Shown here: positions 1 through 8,026 of the stretch, one piece after another
Layout of the letters: each line of letters begins with the position of its first letter
Position numbering within the stretch: the first letter of the stretch is position 1
Source of the DNA: Terriglobia bacterium
GTDB taxonomy: Bacteria > Acidobacteriota > Terriglobia > Bryobacterales > Bryobacteraceae
Assembly (NCBI GenBank): GCA_025358575.1
Contig: JANYJA010000243.1
Span: 1-32,165, forward strand
Reading direction: 5' to 3'
Length of the DNA stretch: 32,165 nt
Notes under the pieces: generated by a model
What the model saw: the letters and a program-made list of their open reading frames with translations, nothing else
What the model was told of the DNA's origin: nothing
Databases searched by the model: none
Position numbers and translations under genes: made by a program

Positions 1-1311
1 CTGGCTCGCAAGCTGCACGCGCAGGGTCATGACTGGGAGGCGCAGTTTGCGCAATTCGGGTATACCGATAAAGTGCAGGCACCGAACATTGGGCTGGCTT
101 CACACGGCGTAAACAACGGGATGGCGTTGAAGGCGGCCGCCGTCTGGTCCGAGATAACAGGAGCGCAGGCAGATCGCGATGCCGCGCTGCGGATGCTGAA
201 GACGCTGGATGAGTTTCACGGACAGCCAAACGGCATGTTCAGTTGCGATGAGCATTTAGCCGGGAGGAATCCATCGCAAGGGACAGAGCTTTGCACCGTG
301 GTGGAAACCATGTATTCACTCGAGACTGAAATCTCCGTGCTGGGCACCCCGATGCTGGCGGACCGGCTCGAAAAGATCACGTTCAATTCGCTGCCCGGCA
401 CGTTCACGCCGGACATGTGGGGACACCAGTACGATCAGCAGGCGAACCAGGTGCTGGTTAGCTTGGGCAAACGCGACTGGTCGAGCAATGGACCCGATTC
501 AAACATTTTCGGGCTGGAACCGAACTTCGGCTGCTGCACGGCGAACATGCACCAGGGATGGCCGAAATTCGTATCGAGCTTGTGGATGGGTGCTCCAGGC
601 AATGGATTGGCGGCCGTGGCGTATTCGCCGAACGATCTGCAAACGGTAGTGAAGGGCGTGAAGGTCGAGATTTCGGAGCAGACGGATTATCCATTCCGCG
701 ACTCCGTTCGCATGGTCGTGAGCCCGGCGCATCCGGTTGCGTTCCCGCTGCAACTGCACATTCCGGAATGGACGCAGCATCCGGAGGTGAAGGTCAATGG
801 GGAGGCCGTGAGTGACGCTCGCAGCGGCACCTTCTTCACCGTGAACCGCGAGTGGAAGGCTGGAGACCGAGTGGAACTCAGGTTCCCGATGCCGATTGCG
901 GTGACTCATTGGTATCACAATTCGGTGGCGGTCGAGCGAGGTCCTCTGGTGTACTCGCTTAAGATCGGGGAGCAGTGGCGCAAGGAGAAACAGACCGGTC
1001 CGGCGACCGACTACGAAGTGTTTCCAACGACGCCGTGGAATTATGCGCTGCGGCTGAATGCCCAAGATCCCGCGAAATCGTTTCGGGTGGAGGAGCGGCC
1101 GATTGGCAAGCAGCCGTTCAGTCCCGATGGCGCTCCCGTAATTCTTTATGCGGAAGCGCGACGCCTGCCCGAATGGGTACTGACCGATGATTCCGCGGCG
1201 CCGCTGCCGGTGAGTCCCGTGAAGAGCAAGCAGCCCGTGGAATCGGTGACGTTGATTCCGTACGGCGCAGCCAAGCTGAGGTTGACAGCGATGCCGTACC
1301 TAAGTGAATAG
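1..1311 (+). CDS. GH127 (DUF1680) beta-L-arabinofuranosidase, 5' truncated by window
   Basis: The reading frame is open from base 1, so the gene starts upstream of the window; 436 codons are visible. The family hydrolyses beta-L-arabinofuranosides and usually uses a zinc-bound cysteine thiolate as nucleophile. Seen: the E-x-C pair (Glu at 286-288, Cys at 292-294, in TELC) and the consecutive cysteines at 532-537 (GCCTAN). Their spacing of about 80 residues is close to that of the known Glu/Cys/Cys-Cys zinc site. The second half is a beta-sandwich-like C-terminal region rich in Trp and Pro. The N-terminal signal and the start of the (alpha/alpha)6 barrel are outside the window. Family assignment is firm; the exact sugar specificity is not, because GH127-like families are broad. 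Confidence 0.9.
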   Translation: MARKLHAQGHDWEAQFAQFGYTDKVQAPNIGLASHGVNNGMALKAAAVWSEITGAQADRDAALRMLKTLDEFHGQPNGMFSCDEHLAGRNPSQGTELCTVVETMYSLETEISVLGTPMLADRLEKITFNSLPGTFTPDMWGHQYDQQANQVLVSLGKRDWSSNGPDSNIFGLEPNFGCCTANMHQGWPKFVSSLWMGAPGNGLAAVAYSPNDLQTVVKGVKVEISEQTDYPFRDSVRMVVSPAHPVAFPLQLHIPEWTQHPEVKVNGEAVSDARSGTFFTVNREWKAGDRVELRFPMPIAVTHWYHNSVAVERGPLVYSLKIGEQWRKEKQTGPATDYEVFPTTPWNYALRLNAQDPAKSFRVEERPIGKQPFSPDGAPVILYAEARRLPEWVLTDDSAAPLPVSPVKSKQPVESVTLIPYGAAKLRLTAMPYLSE

Positions 1312-1968: not shown

Positions 1969-2571
1969 ACCAGCCGAGGCGCCTGCTCCGACGCAGCCAA
2001 TCCTTTCAGCACCCTTAGCCCTGACGGCTCGGTGCAGGTCATCGACATCAATAATCGCAGCTTAATAACCTCGATTCCGATCGTTGGCGATGCAACGCTC
2101 GATCAAATCGTCCTGACGCCGGACGGAACCATGGCGTTCCTGGCCAGCGACTTTTCCTATAACGGCTTCATGTACGCGATCGATACTACAACCAATACAC
2201 TGGTATATAAAGTGTCGAGCCAAGGCGGTCCCGGCCCGGTGCACATGGCCATGCATCCCGATGGTTCGCGGGTCTACCTCGCGCCTTTCGACGGCAAGAA
2301 CACCCGCGTCTTCAATATTGCTAGCGGCACGTTTGGCAATGGAATTCCCGGACCAGGCAACGGAGGGATACAGCCTATCGGGACCCCGGGAGTCAGCGGC
2401 ACGCAGCCCGTGTTCACGCCCGACGGCCGCTATCTTTACATCCTCGACACGCCGCATTCATTTTCAGCGATCGACACCGCCAGCGACACGGTCGTGGGCA
2501 CTTTCCCGTCACCTGTCGCCGGAGTGAACGGCGGCCGGTCGCGCATGACATATTTCGTTCTGCCGGATTAG
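1969..2571 (+). pseudogene. YVTN-type beta-propeller fragment, in frame with the preceding TIGR03437 remnant
   Basis: After the TAG at 1966-1968 the same frame continues through a stretch (GACSDAANPFST) that resembles what normally follows a TIGR03437 module. It then passes into about 180 residues of YVTN/NHL-like beta-propeller repeats to a TAG at 2569-2571. Repeat hallmarks are VIDINNRSL, LTPDGTMAFLAS, YAIDTTTNTLV, MHPDGSRVYLAP, FTPDGRYLYILD and SAIDTASDTVV, giving roughly four blades where six or seven are usual. There is no signal peptide; the only early start is a GTG at 2032 with no Shine-Dalgarno. This looks like the 3' part of a longer secreted protein cut off by the TAG or by a deletion. 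Expression from GTG 2032 cannot be excluded. Confidence 0.55.
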
Positions 2572-2595
2572 CGGTGTTCGCGCCCGTTTCATTCC

Positions 2596-3582
2596 TTACT
2601 TCAGCACTGACTCAAAGAACGCCAGCGCGCGCGAATCGTTGGATTGCCCCAGCCAGAACATCGCTTGCTTCCGCACCTCTGGATTCTTGTTGTTCCTCGC
2701 CGTTTGAATTAATAGCGGAACACCCTCATCCTTCGGCAGTTGCTGGAGCGCGAAGACCGCCTTCTTCTTCACTTCGGTTTCCGGATCGTTCTCAAGTGAA
2801 TTCGCAATGGCGGCCGTCGCCTGCTTTCCTGCTTTTTGCGCCAGCCAAAATAGCGCTTGCCCGCGTACGTGCGGACTGCGATCGTTCTTGGCCACGTCGA
2901 TAATTTCCGCGACGGCTTGCGGCTGTTTGCTTAGCGACATTGCGAAGACGGCCTTCTCTCGAATTTTGTCGCTCGGGTCATGCGTGAGCACGTTCTTCAC
3001 CGCTGCATACCCGCGCGCCCCGCGCGTCACCCCCAGCCAAAAAACCGCTTTTTCGCGCAAGCGCTCATCCTGGTCCTGCTTGACCATCGCTTCCAGCGCG
3101 TCGTCCGCCGAACTATCAGTGTGGAGCGCGATGGCCGTGATCGCTTCATCCGTTCGTTTTTGCTCTCCCGTTTTTCGCGCAATGGACGCAAGCAACGCTA
3201 CACTCGCCGACGGCTTTACGCCACTAAGCAACGTTACCGGCAACCCGCCGGCGTCCAATTCACAGTCTTCGGAATAGACGTGGATGCGAGTCAGCGCGTG
3301 ATTCTCTATACGGTATAAAACCATCAGAGTGCGCGGACCTTCCAGGTGCACCGGGCTTGCAATCGTATTGAGACCGCGGTTGTAACACATCTGGTTTTCG
3401 CCCGCGATCATGGGAACGCCGTAGCCAAGCCAACTGGCTCCCGATTGCGCGGCCAGCGACCGGTCGAAGTCGGCCCGCAGATCGCCGCTTAAGGCGCGCC
3501 CTTGCAGGTTCGCATTGGTCAGCCGCGGCAACTGAGCGGCAAGCGGTATCACCAGCAACAAAATTCCAGTTATTATTTTCAT
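2596..3582 (-). CDS. Secreted HEAT-repeat protein
   Basis: The 328-residue product begins with a short signal peptide (MKIITGILLLVIPLAAQ). It has an N-terminal region of about 140 residues without recognisable fold, containing two cysteines. From about residue 165 to the end come five HEAT-like repeats of about 31 residues. The second helices of the repeats are strikingly alike: KAVFWLG, KAVFAMS, QALFWLA, KAVFALQ and QAMFWLG. HEAT solenoids bind proteins or peptides and are not catalytic. It is the last gene of the sigma/anti-sigma/HEAT operon, 12 bases after the TPR/HEAT gene. Its place downstream of an ECF switch suggests an envelope sensor, scaffold or target of the regulon; this is inference. 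Confidence 0.85.
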   Translation of the reverse strand: MKIITGILLLVIPLAAQLPRLTNANLQGRALSGDLRADFDRSLAAQSGASWLGYGVPMIAGENQMCYNRGLNTIASPVHLEGPRTLMVLYRIENHALTRIHVYSEDCELDAGGLPVTLLSGVKPSASVALLASIARKTGEQKRTDEAITAIALHTDSSADDALEAMVKQDQDERLREKAVFWLGVTRGARGYAAVKNVLTHDPSDKIREKAVFAMSLSKQPQAVAEIIDVAKNDRSPHVRGQALFWLAQKAGKQATAAIANSLENDPETEVKKKAVFALQQLPKDEGVPLLIQTARNNKNPEVRKQAMFWLGQSNDSRALAFFESVLK

Positions 3583-3594
3583 GGCATTCTCTTC

Positions 3595-4818
3595 TTACTT
3601 ATTCAAAATTTCCAGCATGTAGTCCGTAGTTTCCTTGGACCGGATCAGAGACAGCTTTTGCACTGCCTCGTGCTTCAATTCGGGATGAGTTTCCTTGCGC
3701 GCAATCTCAACCAGTGCTTTGGCGTTCTGCTGCAGGAACAACGCATTCAAAATTTCCTTGCGGATTTCGGGGTCGGTCTCGCTTGTATACAAATTTGCAA
3801 GCGAGCCGCCCGACCGCGCCCCCATCAAACCAAGCGAGCGAATCGCCGCGCGTCGCAGCTTCGGCTCTTTCTCATTCTTCGCAATTTCAAGCAGGCGGTC
3901 TGCATTGCCGCCGATGAACATCGATTGCACAATCTGTTCCTTATTTTCCAGCGACGGCTCACGTTGATAGAGCTGCCAGAGTTCCGCGTGAGCGCCCATC
4001 ATGGCGAGTTCCCGAATGGCTTCGTGCCGCAGATCCGCATTCTTCTCGGTCTTCGCCACGCTGAGCAGCGGCTCCTTTGCGCCGCCCAGCAGATAGCCTT
4101 GCAGCACGGCCCGTTTGACTTCCATCTCCCCGGCTTTGGTATAGATCGCCGCTAGATCGTGCTGTGCATCGGCGCCGCCCAACATTGCCAGATACTTCAC
4201 GGCGGTCAATTGCAAGTCGGGATTCGCTCCTCCTTTGGCGGTCTCCACCAAAACCGCCCGTCCGCGCGCCGAGCCGCTTTGCGCCAGCACAAATAGAGCG
4301 CGTTCCTTGAGGCGTCGTGAGCTTCCGCCCTTCAGTAAATTCTCCAGCAAGGGCACCGCTCGTTCGGAATCGGAAGTCATCAACCCATTGATCGCCATCA
4401 GCTTCAGGTCGTCGCTCGATTCAGCCGACGGGCTCACCGGACTTCCTTTCCCCTGATTCACCTCCATTTCGAGCGCCTGGGCATCATCCATCCAGCGGCT
4501 CTTTGGATATTGCCGACGCAGAAGGGCTATCGTCGCCAGCGATTCATCGCGCCTGCCGAGCCGGTTCTGAGCGTAGGCTTTCCAATACAATGCTCCATCG
4601 GCGCGAGGGCCTTTGCGTTCGGCAGCCTCGCTAAATGACCGCAGAGCATCGTCCCAACGGCTCGCGTCCAACGCGCTGGTGCCAGCTTCATATAGTTGGC
4701 CGTCACCGCCCGATCGATTTCGGGATTCGGCTTGCGCCATGAAAGCCAGTTGCCCGGTGTCCGGAGCGGGTCCCCCCTGCGCGAGAAAAAGTGCGATTGC
4801 CGCGGTTACCATCGTCAT
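3595..4818 (-). CDS. TPR/HEAT-repeat protein coupled to anti-sigma factor
   Basis: The product has 407 residues. A short hydrophobic N-terminus (MTMVTAAIALFLAQG) may act as a signal peptide. Residues about 42-113 form tetratricopeptide-like helices (ALDASRWDDALRSFSEAAER, YWKAYAQNRLGRRDESLATI). From about 150 to the end are HEAT-like repeats with recurring LK/LRxxAIRxLxxMGA patterns. The start ATG overlaps the stop of the anti-sigma gene in an ATGA arrangement (4815-4818), so translation is probably coupled. TPR and HEAT solenoids are protein-interaction modules. A secreted or periplasmic partner of the anti-sigma factor's outer domain is plausible but unproven. The next gene encodes a shorter HEAT protein, so the two may form a pair. 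Confidence 0.85.
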   Translation of the reverse strand: MTMVTAAIALFLAQGGPAPDTGQLAFMAQAESRNRSGGDGQLYEAGTSALDASRWDDALRSFSEAAERKGPRADGALYWKAYAQNRLGRRDESLATIALLRRQYPKSRWMDDAQALEMEVNQGKGSPVSPSAESSDDLKLMAINGLMTSDSERAVPLLENLLKGGSSRRLKERALFVLAQSGSARGRAVLVETAKGGANPDLQLTAVKYLAMLGGADAQHDLAAIYTKAGEMEVKRAVLQGYLLGGAKEPLLSVAKTEKNADLRHEAIRELAMMGAHAELWQLYQREPSLENKEQIVQSMFIGGNADRLLEIAKNEKEPKLRRAAIRSLGLMGARSGGSLANLYTSETDPEIRKEILNALFLQQNAKALVEIARKETHPELKHEAVQKLSLIRSKETTDYMLEILNK

Positions 4819-5537
4819 AGTCGATTTCCTTTTTCACGCGCGGTTGTTCCGACCACGCGGACCTTAAATAAAATTCCTTGAGCCTCAATGCGGCGCTGCA
4901 AATTCTCGAGCTCAGGTGAAGAGATTTGCGAAGGGCTGTGAGCAATCTCGAGTAGCACCCGTTCCAGTTCGTCGAGAACGTTCGCGTCCACGCCATCGCC
5001 GGACTTGACGGCCGTTTGCCGAAACAGGCGGTTGTCCTGGACCAAGTCTTGCGCACGACGGCGCTCATCGCTGATGTCAATGGCACCGGAAGCCCGCGTG
5101 TTCACCAGTTCCGCAATCACCATCTGCGAGCGCTCCAAATGGTCGCCCATCGCCACCAGCAGGATGCGCTCGCGGACTTTTCCGGAGATCGCCGATGCGC
5201 TGGAAACCGTCGCCGGTTGCACGCGGCCGCCGCTCCGCTTCGCTATCCACTGGCCCGCCAGGAACGCGACCACAACCAAACCGGCAAGCGCGGGTGCCGC
5301 TTTCCACCAGGACGACCACGACCTCCTAGCCAGCTTCGGCTCCAGTCGATGCCACACCGCCACCTCGTAACTGGCAAGGCGCTCGGGAACCGCATAATCG
5401 CAGGAATCGAGCGTCCGGGCCAGCGCGTCGTATTCGCGTTGGCACTGTTCGCACACCGCGAGATGCACGGCAGGCCCGGCGCTCTCCGGCTCGCCGTAAT
5501 AATGCAAAATCAATTGTTCTTCACTGAGATGGGTCAT
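4815..5537 (-). CDS. Putative membrane anti-sigma factor with zinc-finger motif
   Basis: The 240-residue product starts with a zf-HC2-like cytoplasmic segment: His25, Cys29 and Cys32 in HxxxCxxC spacing, typical of zinc-binding anti-sigma domains that hold ECF sigma factors. A Trp-rich stretch leads into one membrane helix at about residues 79-97 (APALAGLVVVAFLAGQWIA). The remaining 140 residues would lie outside and are mainly helical, with DQ/E-rich segments. The gene overlaps the preceding sigma gene and the following TPR/HEAT gene by ATGA junctions, the usual arrangement for a sigma/anti-sigma pair. No protease cleavage site can be identified by eye. Assignment is strong from context and motif; the inducing signal is unknown. 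Confidence 0.88.
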   Translation of the reverse strand: MTHLSEEQLILHYYGEPESAGPAVHLAVCEQCQREYDALARTLDSCDYAVPERLASYEVAVWHRLEPKLARRSWSSWWKAAPALAGLVVVAFLAGQWIAKRSGGRVQPATVSSASAISGKVRERILLVAMGDHLERSQMVIAELVNTRASGAIDISDERRRAQDLVQDNRLFRQTAVKSGDGVDANVLDELERVLLEIAHSPSQISSPELENLQRRIEAQGILFKVRVVGTTAREKGNRL

Positions 5538-6091
5538 CTTGCTGCCCCCATGGCCGGCTGAAGCGCGCGCCGCAGCTTTTGAACTGCGCGGAAAACGCTA
5601 TGCTTGGCCGCATTCGGCTCCACGCCCAGCACCCGCCCGATCTCTTCCATGGCAAGGCCCTCGTAGTGACGCAAGACGAAAGCGGTGCGCTCAGTCTGGC
5701 TAAGTTCTTTCATCGCCGTGCCCAAGATGCCGCTGATCTCAACGCTCTGAGTGAGCCGCTCCGGGGACGCGTCTCGCGAGCGCACGGCATCGACGGGTGC
5801 TTCCACGGTGCGCTCGTCGCGCTTCTTGCGGGCGCGGAGCAAGTCCACCGAGCAATTGGCCGCGATGCGATAGAGCCAAGTGCCGAATCCCGCCCGGCCA
5901 TCGAATCTGCCGAGTTGTTTGTAAGCTCGCAAGAAAGTCTCCTGCACCATGTCTTCCGCATCGTGCTCATTGCCGGTCATCCGGTACGCCAGCCGAAACA
6001 CGGCGCGACTGTGGCGGTCGACGAGCACACGAAATGCGTCAGCATTCCCGCCGCGTGCATGCTCGACAGCCGCTGCATCGGTCCATTCCAT
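5534..6091 (-). CDS. ECF-family RNA polymerase sigma factor (RpoE-like)
   Basis: The 185-residue product has both ECF domains. Sigma region 2 spans about residues 18-86 (DAFRVLVDRHSR, DAEDMVQETFLRAY, FGTWLYRIAANCSVDLLR). Region 4 spans about 128-178 (LSQTERTAFVLRHYEGL, EEIGRVLGVEPNAAKHSVFRAVQKLR). Length and order are normal for the class. It directs RNA polymerase to a small regulon when released by its anti-sigma factor, whose gene follows with a 4-base overlap. The 115 bases upstream contain short inverted repeats, but I could not find a convincing GGAAC-type autoregulatory promoter. Confidence 0.95.
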   Translation of the reverse strand: MEWTDAAAVEHARGGNADAFRVLVDRHSRAVFRLAYRMTGNEHDAEDMVQETFLRAYKQLGRFDGRAGFGTWLYRIAANCSVDLLRARKKRDERTVEAPVDAVRSRDASPERLTQSVEISGILGTAMKELSQTERTAFVLRHYEGLAMEEIGRVLGVEPNAAKHSVFRAVQKLRRALQPAMGAAR

Positions 6092-6138
6092 CCGGCTGAC
6101 AGTTTAGACTGCGCGAGGGGGGAGCGGTTAGCTTGAAG

Positions 6139-6149
6139 ACTTCAGAAGT
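6139..6149. repeat. Short perfect inverted repeat upstream of the sigma operon
   Basis: ACTTC-A-GAAGT forms a perfect 5+5 palindrome about 48 bases upstream of the sigma-factor ATG. A second small palindrome (CAGT-4-ACTG) lies at 6100-6111, close to the start codon. Either could be an operator or occur by chance; repeats of this length are expected occasionally in any sequence. Confidence 0.2.
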
Positions 6150-6206
6150 TTTGAGGGCGCGTGTGGCCGAAGCCGCTGTCACGCTTCCCCGGCACGCTTT
6201 CGGAAC

Positions 6207-7541
6207 CTATTTCCCCGCCGCTGCCGCGCAGTACATCTCCAAACCCACCGCCCAGCGTCGCTGGAATCCCTTCCAGCTCGTCTCGCCGTCACTCCCCTTG
6301 CTGAATAACGCACCCGCTGATTTCCCTTCAGCCAGCGGCCACTTCCCATCATTCGATTTCAGCGGACCCACATGCAGATAAGGCCGCCGCGTCTCGTCGC
6401 CTTTCAAATACAGATCCAGAAACGCCGTTACGAAATGTTGATTAATAGCGGTGATCCGGTCCTTGCGCCACACCGGTTCGTCGAACGCTTGAAGAGCTTC
6501 AAAGCTTAGCGCCACGCCGGGCGGCGGTGGATTTCCGCCCACATTGTGCCGCGCATTTTCGTAAACCAGCATGCATCGGTCCGAGTTGACGGCGCCGTCG
6601 AACGCCCGCTTGACGCCAGTCTGGTATTCCGACACATCGTCCTGATCGCCCACCACAAAGAGCGCCGGAATGTGAATTCCCGCCAGTCCCGCATCATCCC
6701 AACTGGAGAAAGGCGGCTGCGCGCCCCAAGGCGCCATCGCGACGATGGCTTTCAAATTCTCATGCTTGTGCGCGAGAAATTTTTGGCCGCCGGCCGTGAC
6801 GTCCGCAAAGTATCCGCCTGGCACAAAGCTCGCGGCCCTTCCGTCTTTACGGTAACCCGCGCCCGCGCTGGCTAGCGCTCCGTATCCGCCCATTGAGTAC
6901 CCGACGATCGCAACCTTCGATGCATCCAGAATCCCATGCAGAAAATCGTCGGATTTCGTGGCACGTTCAGCGAGTGCATCGATAGTGAACAGTTGATCCG
7001 TAGATCGATTCAGAAGCGTGCTCTGAAATCCTTTCACCGCGCCAAAGACGGAATCGGTATGGTCGATGGCCGCCACTATATAGCCCTTTGAAGCCAAGTT
7101 CTCAGTGAGGTAAGTCAGGAACGTGCGCGACCCGGGGTACCCATGCGACACCACCACCAGCGGAAACTGCCCGCCCGTAACCGGAGGCGCATCGCGCAGC
7201 GCCTTGCCCGCAATGTGTAACGTAGCGCCGCTTAAGCCCGGCATCGCACTCTCGTAAACGGTGCGCTCCTCTGTGCCTTCTGGAATGGCGGCGGGATACC
7301 AAACCTCAACGGTGAGAGGCCGGTCGTAAAGGGGTGCCTTCCCCGTGTCTTTGTCGAAATGAAGAATATCGACCTGGCCTGGATTGACCAGGTGAATCGT
7401 GCGCACGCCAACCTTGTGAGCGCCTCGGTGCGCCAACTCGGGAGCATCCACGCCGGGCACGCTGAAATAAACCTCGGGGTTTTGTGCGGCAATGCACCAC
7501 GCAAAGGTCGCGGCAATGAAGAGTGAGCGAAGAAGTCGCAT
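6207..7541 (-). CDS. Secreted alpha/beta hydrolase (PAF-acetylhydrolase / dienelactone hydrolase-like)
   Basis: Starting at ATG 7541 gives 444 residues with a clean signal peptide (MRLLRSLFIAATFAWCIAAQ); a longer reading from 7589 only adds a charged leader in front of it. The core has a dialkyl-ester-hydrolase shape: PLVVVSHGYPGSR (oxyanion region), the nucleophile elbow GYSMGG, FVVGDQDDVSE (candidate acid) and a late His in ENARHNVGG. This resembles platelet-activating-factor acetylhydrolase-type esterases. It probably cleaves an ester outside the cytoplasm; the substrate is unknown. It lies upstream of the sigma operon on the same strand but is separated by about 115 bases, so cotranscription is uncertain. 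Its 5' end faces ruvX across about 35 bases. Confidence 0.85.
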   Translation of the reverse strand: MRLLRSLFIAATFAWCIAAQNPEVYFSVPGVDAPELAHRGAHKVGVRTIHLVNPGQVDILHFDKDTGKAPLYDRPLTVEVWYPAAIPEGTEERTVYESAMPGLSGATLHIAGKALRDAPPVTGGQFPLVVVSHGYPGSRTFLTYLTENLASKGYIVAAIDHTDSVFGAVKGFQSTLLNRSTDQLFTIDALAERATKSDDFLHGILDASKVAIVGYSMGGYGALASAGAGYRKDGRAASFVPGGYFADVTAGGQKFLAHKHENLKAIVAMAPWGAQPPFSSWDDAGLAGIHIPALFVVGDQDDVSEYQTGVKRAFDGAVNSDRCMLVYENARHNVGGNPPPPGVALSFEALQAFDEPVWRKDRITAINQHFVTAFLDLYLKGDETRRPYLHVGPLKSNDGKWPLAEGKSAGALFSKGSDGETSWKGFQRRWAVGLEMYCAAAAGK

Positions 7542-7562
7542 CTGAATATAGTGACACCTGTC

Positions 7563-7568
7563 TATAAT
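7563..7568 (+). promoter_or_regulatory. Candidate -10 box (TATAAT) before ruvX
   Basis: A perfect TATAAT hexamer sits in the short gap between divergent genes, with TG four bases upstream (TGTCTATAAT), close to an extended -10. No good -35 is visible at 16-18 bases. A start about seven bases downstream would fall at the TTG start codon of ruvX (7577) and give a leaderless message. Alternatively the overlapping GAAG at 7569-7572 is a weak Shine-Dalgarno and the hexamer is coincidental. Confidence 0.35.
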
Positions 7569-7576
7569 GAAGTTCT

Positions 7577-8026
7577 TTGAGCCGTCCAATTGGTCGCATT
7601 CTGGCGCTTGATCTCGGCACGCGGCGCATCGGTATTGCCGTCAGCGACGAGCTTGGAATTCTCGCGCGCGGCCTGGATACGCTGATCCGCACGAACAAAC
7701 GCGCCGACCTCGAAGTTCTGAATCGCATCGCAATGGAACATCAGGTTCGTCTGATTCTGCTGGGGAATCCGCTCCGCTTAAGCGGTGAAGCCGGAAGCCA
7801 GTCCGATTGGGCGCGGAAATTCGGTGATGATTTGCGGGCTCGCACCAAGCTGCCCGTTGCACTCGTTGACGAGCGACTGACCAGCGCGGCAGCCGCCGAG
7901 GCGCTTCGTGGGAAGCGCATCCCTATAAGACACAGGAAGGCGGCTATCGACCGCATCGCCGCGATTATCCTCCTTCAGGGCTACTTGGACGCCCATGCGG
8001 TTTCCACCATGGAGCACAACCTATGA
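7577..8026 (+). CDS. ruvX: Holliday junction resolvase-like / pre-16S rRNA nuclease RuvX (YqgF)
   Basis: The product has 149 residues, the normal length for the family. Its RNase H-like fold is marked by the N-terminal acidic strand ILALDLGTRRIGIAVSD (Asp11), LLGNPLRLSG, the conserved VDERLTS segment (Asp98/Glu99) and the C-terminal IDRIAAIILLQGYL. The family is a nuclease implicated in maturation of the 16S rRNA 5' end. TTG 7577 is the only usable start, because an in-frame TGA lies just upstream at 7568-7570. The stop overlaps the mltG start by ATGA. A ruvX-mltG pairing is common in bacteria. Confidence 0.92.
   Translation: MSRPIGRILALDLGTRRIGIAVSDELGILARGLDTLIRTNKRADLEVLNRIAMEHQVRLILLGNPLRLSGEAGSQSDWARKFGDDLRARTKLPVALVDERLTSAAAAEALRGKRIPIRHRKAAIDRIAAIILLQGYLDAHAVSTMEHNL

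Follow-up and report, generated by a model that had tools for sequence, protein, structure and literature searches.

A putatively autoregulated ECF sigma factor operon in Acidobacteriota: a proposal for two predicted exported TPR/HEAT solenoid proteins as its conserved output

Introduction

What are two genes for helical-repeat proteins doing beside the genes of an extracytoplasmic function (ECF) sigma factor and its anti-sigma factor? The question is raised by a 32,165-nucleotide stretch of DNA from a Terriglobia bacterium of the Bryobacteraceae (assembly GCA_025358575.1, contig JANYJA010000243.1), referred to hereafter as the window. On its minus strand, running from 6091 to 2596, lie four genes in the order SIG (ECF sigma factor), ANT (anti-sigma factor), TPH (TPR-HEAT protein) and HEA (HEAT protein). 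ECF sigma factors are a main bacterial route for sensing envelope conditions, and the Acidobacteriota, which are abundant in soils, are poorly understood in envelope sensing. The answer that we favor, with a probability of roughly 0.7, is that SIG and ANT form an autoregulated, self-amplifying switch of which the two solenoid proteins would be the dedicated, exported and conserved output, with TPH probably also acting in feedback.

Results and Discussion

The four-gene order in the window and across the phylum

The SIG-ANT-TPH-HEA arrangement in the window is real. SIG and ANT overlap by four nucleotides (ATGA, 5534-5537), as do ANT and TPH (4815-4818), and TPH and HEA are spaced by 12 nt (3583-3594). 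A preliminary description of the window had reported four co-directional genes, two ATGA overlaps and a 12-base gap, and the coordinates bear this out. The genes and the promoter element ahead of them are as follows.

6104-6131, minus strand: ECF-type promoter element CTAACC-N16-GTCTAA (-35 at 6126-6131, -10 at 6104-6109), 12 nt ahead of the SIG ATG
5534-6091, minus strand: SIG, ECF sigma factor with regions 2 and 4 only (Pfam), 185 amino acids
4815-5537, minus strand: ANT, predicted single-pass anti-sigma factor, 240 amino acids, overlapping SIG by 4 nt, with profile matches to RsiW and ChrR
3595-4818, minus strand: TPH (Pfam), 407 amino acids, with TPR at about residues 40-110, HEAT from about residue 150 and a signal-peptide-like start
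2596-3582, minus strand: HEA (Pfam), 328 amino acids, with a signal-peptide-like start, a strand-rich N-terminal domain and then a HEAT solenoid

Separate promoters within the window were considered and rejected: a scan of 2300-6400 for sigma-70-like promoters found none on the minus strand; its one hit, where 0.9 would be expected, was on the plus strand.

With one genome scanned for each species, 177 relatives of TPH came to light, and the locus counts given here rest on the best 80 of these. All 80 come from records of Acidobacteria or a subgroup except L055 (Nevskia soli), L077 (Betaproteobacteria) and L113 (JAIEMQ010000005.1, Cyanobacteria bacterium). The title of L113 is probably wrong, and those of L055 and L077 are likely to be errors of the same kind. 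Relatives of TPH were present in 22 of 61 near genomes and in 106 of the 299 genomes of the window's class. SIG lies upstream of TPH in 72 of the 80 loci and ANT in 74; the eight loci without SIG lack it because the genes there run up to the contig end. HEA lies downstream in 71, and in three of the other nine the contig ends within 350 nt of TPH. The four-gene order recurs in many species at 45-57% TPH identity and is thus more than chance. Overlapping junctions are common among the relatives (SIG/ANT in 61 of 72, ANT/TPH in 35 of 74, TPH/HEA in 46 of 71), and no further neighbor family occurs in more than 18 of the 80 loci, in a set of mechanically called open reading frames (ORFs) of which some are spurious.

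The order was also approached from the other end of the operon. A profile of HEA matched 82 of 297 phylum genomes, many of the matches spanning HEAT repeats alone, and 20 regions around matches were chosen from this list by hand, not at random. SIG, ANT, TPH and HEA stand in order in 18 of the 20, and in 17 of the 19 that lie outside the window's class; the exceptions are G558, which has HEA alone, and G351, which has HEAT genes without SIG or ANT. The search across Acidobacteriota that the preliminary description had proposed therefore finds the order to be widespread, not single, and the expected company of the solenoid genes and the sigma pair is found elsewhere as well. In a further set of 40 genomes, likewise hand-chosen and not random, a SIG profile detected the SIG clade in all four TPH-positive genomes (G214, G188, G165 and G075; 249-281 bits) and in none of the 36 TPH-negative ones (best 191.6 bits).

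Two other accounts of the cluster were discarded. Chance clustering was rejected in view of the conservation of order and overlaps across the phylum, and carriage on plasmids was rejected when TPH gave no match at E 1e-10 in a plasmid collection. One contig (G537:C114; L281 and L282) carries two whole four-gene units about 20 kb apart, with two promoter-like elements before each SIG.

The promoter element ahead of SIG

ECF systems commonly have AAC and CGT boxes, autoregulation and an anti-sigma factor encoded alongside, according to the relevant passages of PMC8103513 and PMC3426412. We searched for the element with the regular expression [CG][TC]AAC[N]-N14-18-GTC[TAG]AA upstream of SIG in the window and in the 70 loci with an assignable SIG start. 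L077 and L088, in which SIG is present and its start is not assignable, stand outside this set of 71 regions; in both, the element lies 8 nt ahead of the ORF. The element was matched in 67 of the 71 regions, compared to 0.0 per set in 200 dinucleotide shuffles; it was not matched upstream of SIG in L054, L055, L085 and L111. In the matched regions the spacing is 16 in 62 and 17 in five, and 57 have the strict CTAACC...GTCTAA form. AAC and GTC are invariant, partly by construction of the expression, and GT is preceded by C in 19 of the 67. Since the element ends 7-13 nt ahead of the assigned start codon in 63 of the 67, the transcripts would be almost leaderless.

Sigma-E has a large regulon. 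In contrast, the operon has the only exact copy of the element in the window's genome (4.77 Mb), and sites with one mismatch number three, compared to 23 + 23 for a backwards control. In a set of 22 relatives, 14 of the 19 exact sites stand ahead of SIG. In the class, 109 of 299 genomes have a match, and of 150 listed sites 80 are found at most 3.5 kb upstream of TPH. The comparison took in 103 of the 106 TPH-positive class genomes, and 77 of them hold these 80 sites. From the placement of the element we infer that SIG recognizes CTAACC-N16-GTCTAA and drives its own operon.

Genomes in which the operon is split

The unit is split in four genomes, three of one genus (G313, G291 and G004) and one of a different genus in the same family (G316). 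In each, SIG, ANT and TPH stand at one place behind the element, and no HEA is present in the 1.4-1.9 kb fetched after them. On another contig there is a second TPH-like gene (TPH2) followed by HEA. This pair too is preceded by the element, at about 19-55 nt from its likely start; the copy is exact in G313, G291 and G316 and has one mismatch in G004. No other observation points so strongly to TPH and HEA as the output of SIG as the presence of the element in trans, ahead of TPH2-HEA, and the retention of TPH beside SIG-ANT after the split suggests that TPH is the solenoid tied to the switch. The preliminary description had offered the solenoids as a possible main output. That suggestion gains from the near confinement of the element to the operon in the window's genome and from its place ahead of the moved pair in the four split genomes. 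A solo relative of TPH at G036:C82 is without the element.

Properties of the four proteins

SIG matches Sigma70_r2 (2e-22) and Sigma70_r4_2 (6.9e-12) in Pfam. The region-4 match reaches residue 173 or 174 of 185, so that the protein ends soon after and has no C-terminal regulatory extension, and the closest solved chain is SigW (E 2.6e-27). ANT matched no Pfam family above the cut-off, and its outer part, searched separately, had no Pfam match either. A profile of ANT relatives compared with solved chains matched RsiW (E 1.5e-6) and ChrR (E 0.01). Three parts of ANT can be placed.

5442-5465, minus strand: zinc-type HX3CX2C motif, residues 25-32, with H25, C29 and C32 invariant in 21 aligned sequences
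5235-5309, minus strand: predicted transmembrane helix, residues 77-101, a long hydrophobic helix in an AlphaFold model, its hydrophobicity judged by eye
4818-5225, minus strand: outer helical-bundle domain of the model, about residues 105-240, conserved in the alignment

The ANT model (mean predicted local distance difference test score, pLDDT, 89.3; predicted template modeling score, pTM, 0.54) has an inner helical part, then helix 77-101, long enough to span a membrane, and an outer bundle formed by helices 119-239. Foldseek found no match in the PDB for the outer domain at E 0.001 or better. VIA-align gave middling values, Z up to 12.1, to four-helix bundles only, among them chemoreceptor and kinase sensor domains. 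As bundles of this type call for a Z of about 13 by the tool's guide, we claim no relation.

TPH matches HEAT_2 (1.3e-20) and, at 31.8 bits and under the cut-off of 32.7, TPR_16 (2e-7). TPH proteins in the alignment (L021/L304) differ strongly in how many HEAT units they have, and G014 has extra tandem units. HEA matches HEAT_2 (1.5e-20), with no Pfam match for residues 18-160. Its model (mean pLDDT 92.2, pTM 0.87) has a strand-rich N-terminal domain at about residues 20-120 and then the HEAT solenoid; within the strand-rich part, C107 is invariant in each of the two alignments and C66 nearly so in the first. The best matches of the model are artificial alphaRep proteins of HEAT type (Foldseek E 1.1e-6, Z 16.5). 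RseB is not among the listed structural matches of the whole HEA model, an absence that carries no weight. The N-termini of TPH and HEA look by eye like signal peptides, and both proteins are probably exported or in the envelope.

Relation to known systems

The sigma/anti-sigma module itself is of a known kind. It combines a sigma factor of regions 2 and 4 only, an overlapping ANT gene and the HX3CX2C motif, which belongs to class I (zinc) anti-sigma factors as the motif is defined in a passage of PMC7406223. It resembles systems of the SigW-RsiW/ChrR type in that SIG is nearest SigW, the ANT profile is nearest RsiW, ANT has the zinc motif and one predicted membrane helix, and the genes overlap; it differs in the longer, conserved outer domain of ANT and in the two downstream genes for solenoids of predicted export. 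The order also recalls rpoE-rseA-rseB(-rseC) of Escherichia coli, an autoregulated operon in which genes for a sigma factor and a membrane anti-sigma factor are followed by one or more for exported proteins (for RseB, a passage of PMC8103513), although here export is judged by eye and TPR/HEAT solenoids stand in the place of RseB. Like ECF41, as portrayed in sections of PMC3426412, SIG would have a single transcript as its only detectable target in the window's genome and a highly conserved promoter. In contrast to ECF41, whose sigma factor carries a regulatory domain fused at its C-terminus and whose targets are enzymes (COE), SIG is a protein of 185 residues with a separate ANT.

According to the preliminary description, no known system includes such solenoids. 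Within the literature searched this stands, as no description of the arrangement was met in the portions covered of sources that include PMC3174227, PMC7406223, PMC8103513 and PMC3426412. It does not extend to calling the arrangement unreported, because the main ECF classification lay outside that search. With this reservation, we regard the TPR-HEAT/HEAT addition as a variant not met in the literature searched.

A proposed mechanism and its weak points

In the mechanism that we propose, ANT, with its zinc motif and anchored by one membrane helix, would hold SIG at rest. An envelope signal would act on the outer helical domain of ANT and SIG would be released. Freed SIG would transcribe its own operon from CTAACC-N16-GTCTAA, so that SIG, ANT, TPH and HEA would rise together, and TPH and HEA would be exported as the conserved output of the switch. 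By analogy with the action of RseB on RseA, TPH might also bind the outer domain of ANT and so give feedback; it is the best candidate for such a part. Of this model, the sequence shows the gene order, the promoter element with its position ahead of the separated TPH/HEA pair, and the co-occurrence; export, recognition of the promoter by SIG, signal, binding and feedback are inferred.

Several observations weigh against the model. HEA was not detected in six of the 80 loci despite downstream room (L089, L101, L105, L106, L111 and L112). Of the 103 TPH genomes compared, 26 had no exact element at the operon among the matches listed, and the regular expression found it in 11 and missed it in seven of 18 phylum-wide loci. 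The rarity of the element is weak evidence when taken alone, because CTAA-rich words are rare in GC-rich genomes. Copies also occur in genomes that lack the SIG clade: four sites in G157 and G184 precede PadR or ADOP genes, and in the TPH-negative G235 (L201, G235:C224) an exact element lies 4 nt ahead of another ECF gene. It is therefore likely that several sigma factors have the element in common. In a mirror-tree comparison of 59 sequences, the ANT outer domain and the TPH HEAT part or HEA N-terminal domain gave a partial r of 0.38-0.39, compared to 0.21-0.22 for the ANT inner domain; this excess is slight, with relatedness only partly removed, and was not used as evidence.

Alternative readings

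The alternative that survives best is that TPH and HEA serve as effectors and nothing more, perhaps as scaffolds for envelope assembly or repair, with no part in sensing. The travel of the element with TPH2-HEA in trans would suit it, and so would the varying repeat number (matches to the TPH model end early or are extended), as expected of a binding scaffold. SIG, ANT and TPH remain together in all four split genomes, however, which suggests that TPH is tied to the switch and places this reading on the unlikely side.

The converse, close to the ligand-sensing role that the preliminary description had also offered, is that both solenoids are sensors. As co-anti-sigma factors, with RseB as the nearest known case, they would shield the outer domain of ANT until a ligand or a misfolded envelope protein removed them. 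RseB, encoded in the rpoE operon, is periplasmic and binds RseA, as stated in part of PMC8103513, and TPH directly follows ANT just as rseB follows rseA in rpoE-rseA-rseB. TPH is never apart from SIG-ANT in complete loci and stays with them in the split genomes, and the partial correlation described above is slightly raised. That correlation is nonetheless small, with relatedness removed in part, and HEA can move or be missing, so that it is not obligate for the switch. We consider it unlikely that sensing is the role of both proteins.

A third possibility concerns the regulon. Among the 150 class sites listed, 70 lie outside the operon, and we examined 68 of these (G214:C711 and G157:C43 were left out). 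Five precede SIG-like starts (L188, L190, L191, L195 and L204). Fifteen have genes for ADOP permeases (MacB/FtsX-like) or PadR regulators downstream on the same strand within 1.2 kb (13 ADOP, 10 PadR; NCBIfam TIGR03434 and TIGR03433 were the names used), compared to 94 of 2000 random operon-flank stretches (91 ADOP, 10 PadR), although the control stretches come from other genomes and many of the sites, being in related genomes, are not independent. SIG might on this evidence control a wider envelope-stress regulon that includes PadR-ADOP operons. Ten of the 14 clear sites are in TPH-positive genomes, and there are further ADOP sites at L136 and L148. Against this, none of the 13 ADOP-type places scanned with a position weight matrix in the window's genome (of 30 found) carries the element, and the four sites in G157 and G184 are in genomes without the SIG clade. 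A wider regulon is therefore doubtful at present, a lead and not a result; as a lead, it bears on the control of a large permease family of Acidobacteriota.

Individual copies outside the operon deserve mention. The exact element ends 6 nt before the start of an ADOP-family permease gene in three genomes of the window's family (L144, G022:C70; L136, G003:C415; L148, G033:C34). It stands just ahead of genes for PadR-family regulators at L186, L187, L189, L193, L203, L237, L239, L240, L242 and L243, and at eight of these ten sites an ADOP gene follows in the fetched stretch. The L204 site, in the TPH-negative G166 (G166:C74, from 16467 on), has the element and 15 SIG-like first codons, after which the similarity stops; it is likely to be a remnant left after loss of the operon. 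At L205 (G298:C121:7831-7858) an exact element lies 25 nt before a gene that by eye resembles a main sigma factor of the RpoD type.

That the four genes are neighbors with no functional tie is hardly credible: HEAT and TPR proteins are common, and G558 and G351 have HEA or HEAT genes without SIG or ANT, yet order and overlaps are conserved across the phylum, no other neighbor family exceeds 18 of the 80 loci and the split pair shares the promoter.

To return to the favored reading of an autoregulated switch with the solenoids as output and TPH in feedback, it has a bolder form. In this form the switch would be phylum-wide in Acidobacteriota, and the exported TPR/HEAT solenoids would be both its dedicated output and agents of sensing or feedback on the outer helical domain of ANT, in a closed, self-amplifying loop whose regulon, in some genomes, would hold little more. 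So full a version is quite unlikely to hold. A conserved module with a readable promoter is a useful handle. It offers a reporter, a defined output and, in the split operons, a natural experiment, by which the signal and the role of the solenoids become testable.

Neighboring genes in the window

Upstream of SIG and on the same strand, 6207-7589 (minus) encodes an alpha/beta hydrolase that resembles PETase and PAF-acetylhydrolase. Close to the start of the window, 73-1311 (plus) is a gene of the beta-L-arabinofuranosidase (GH127) type.

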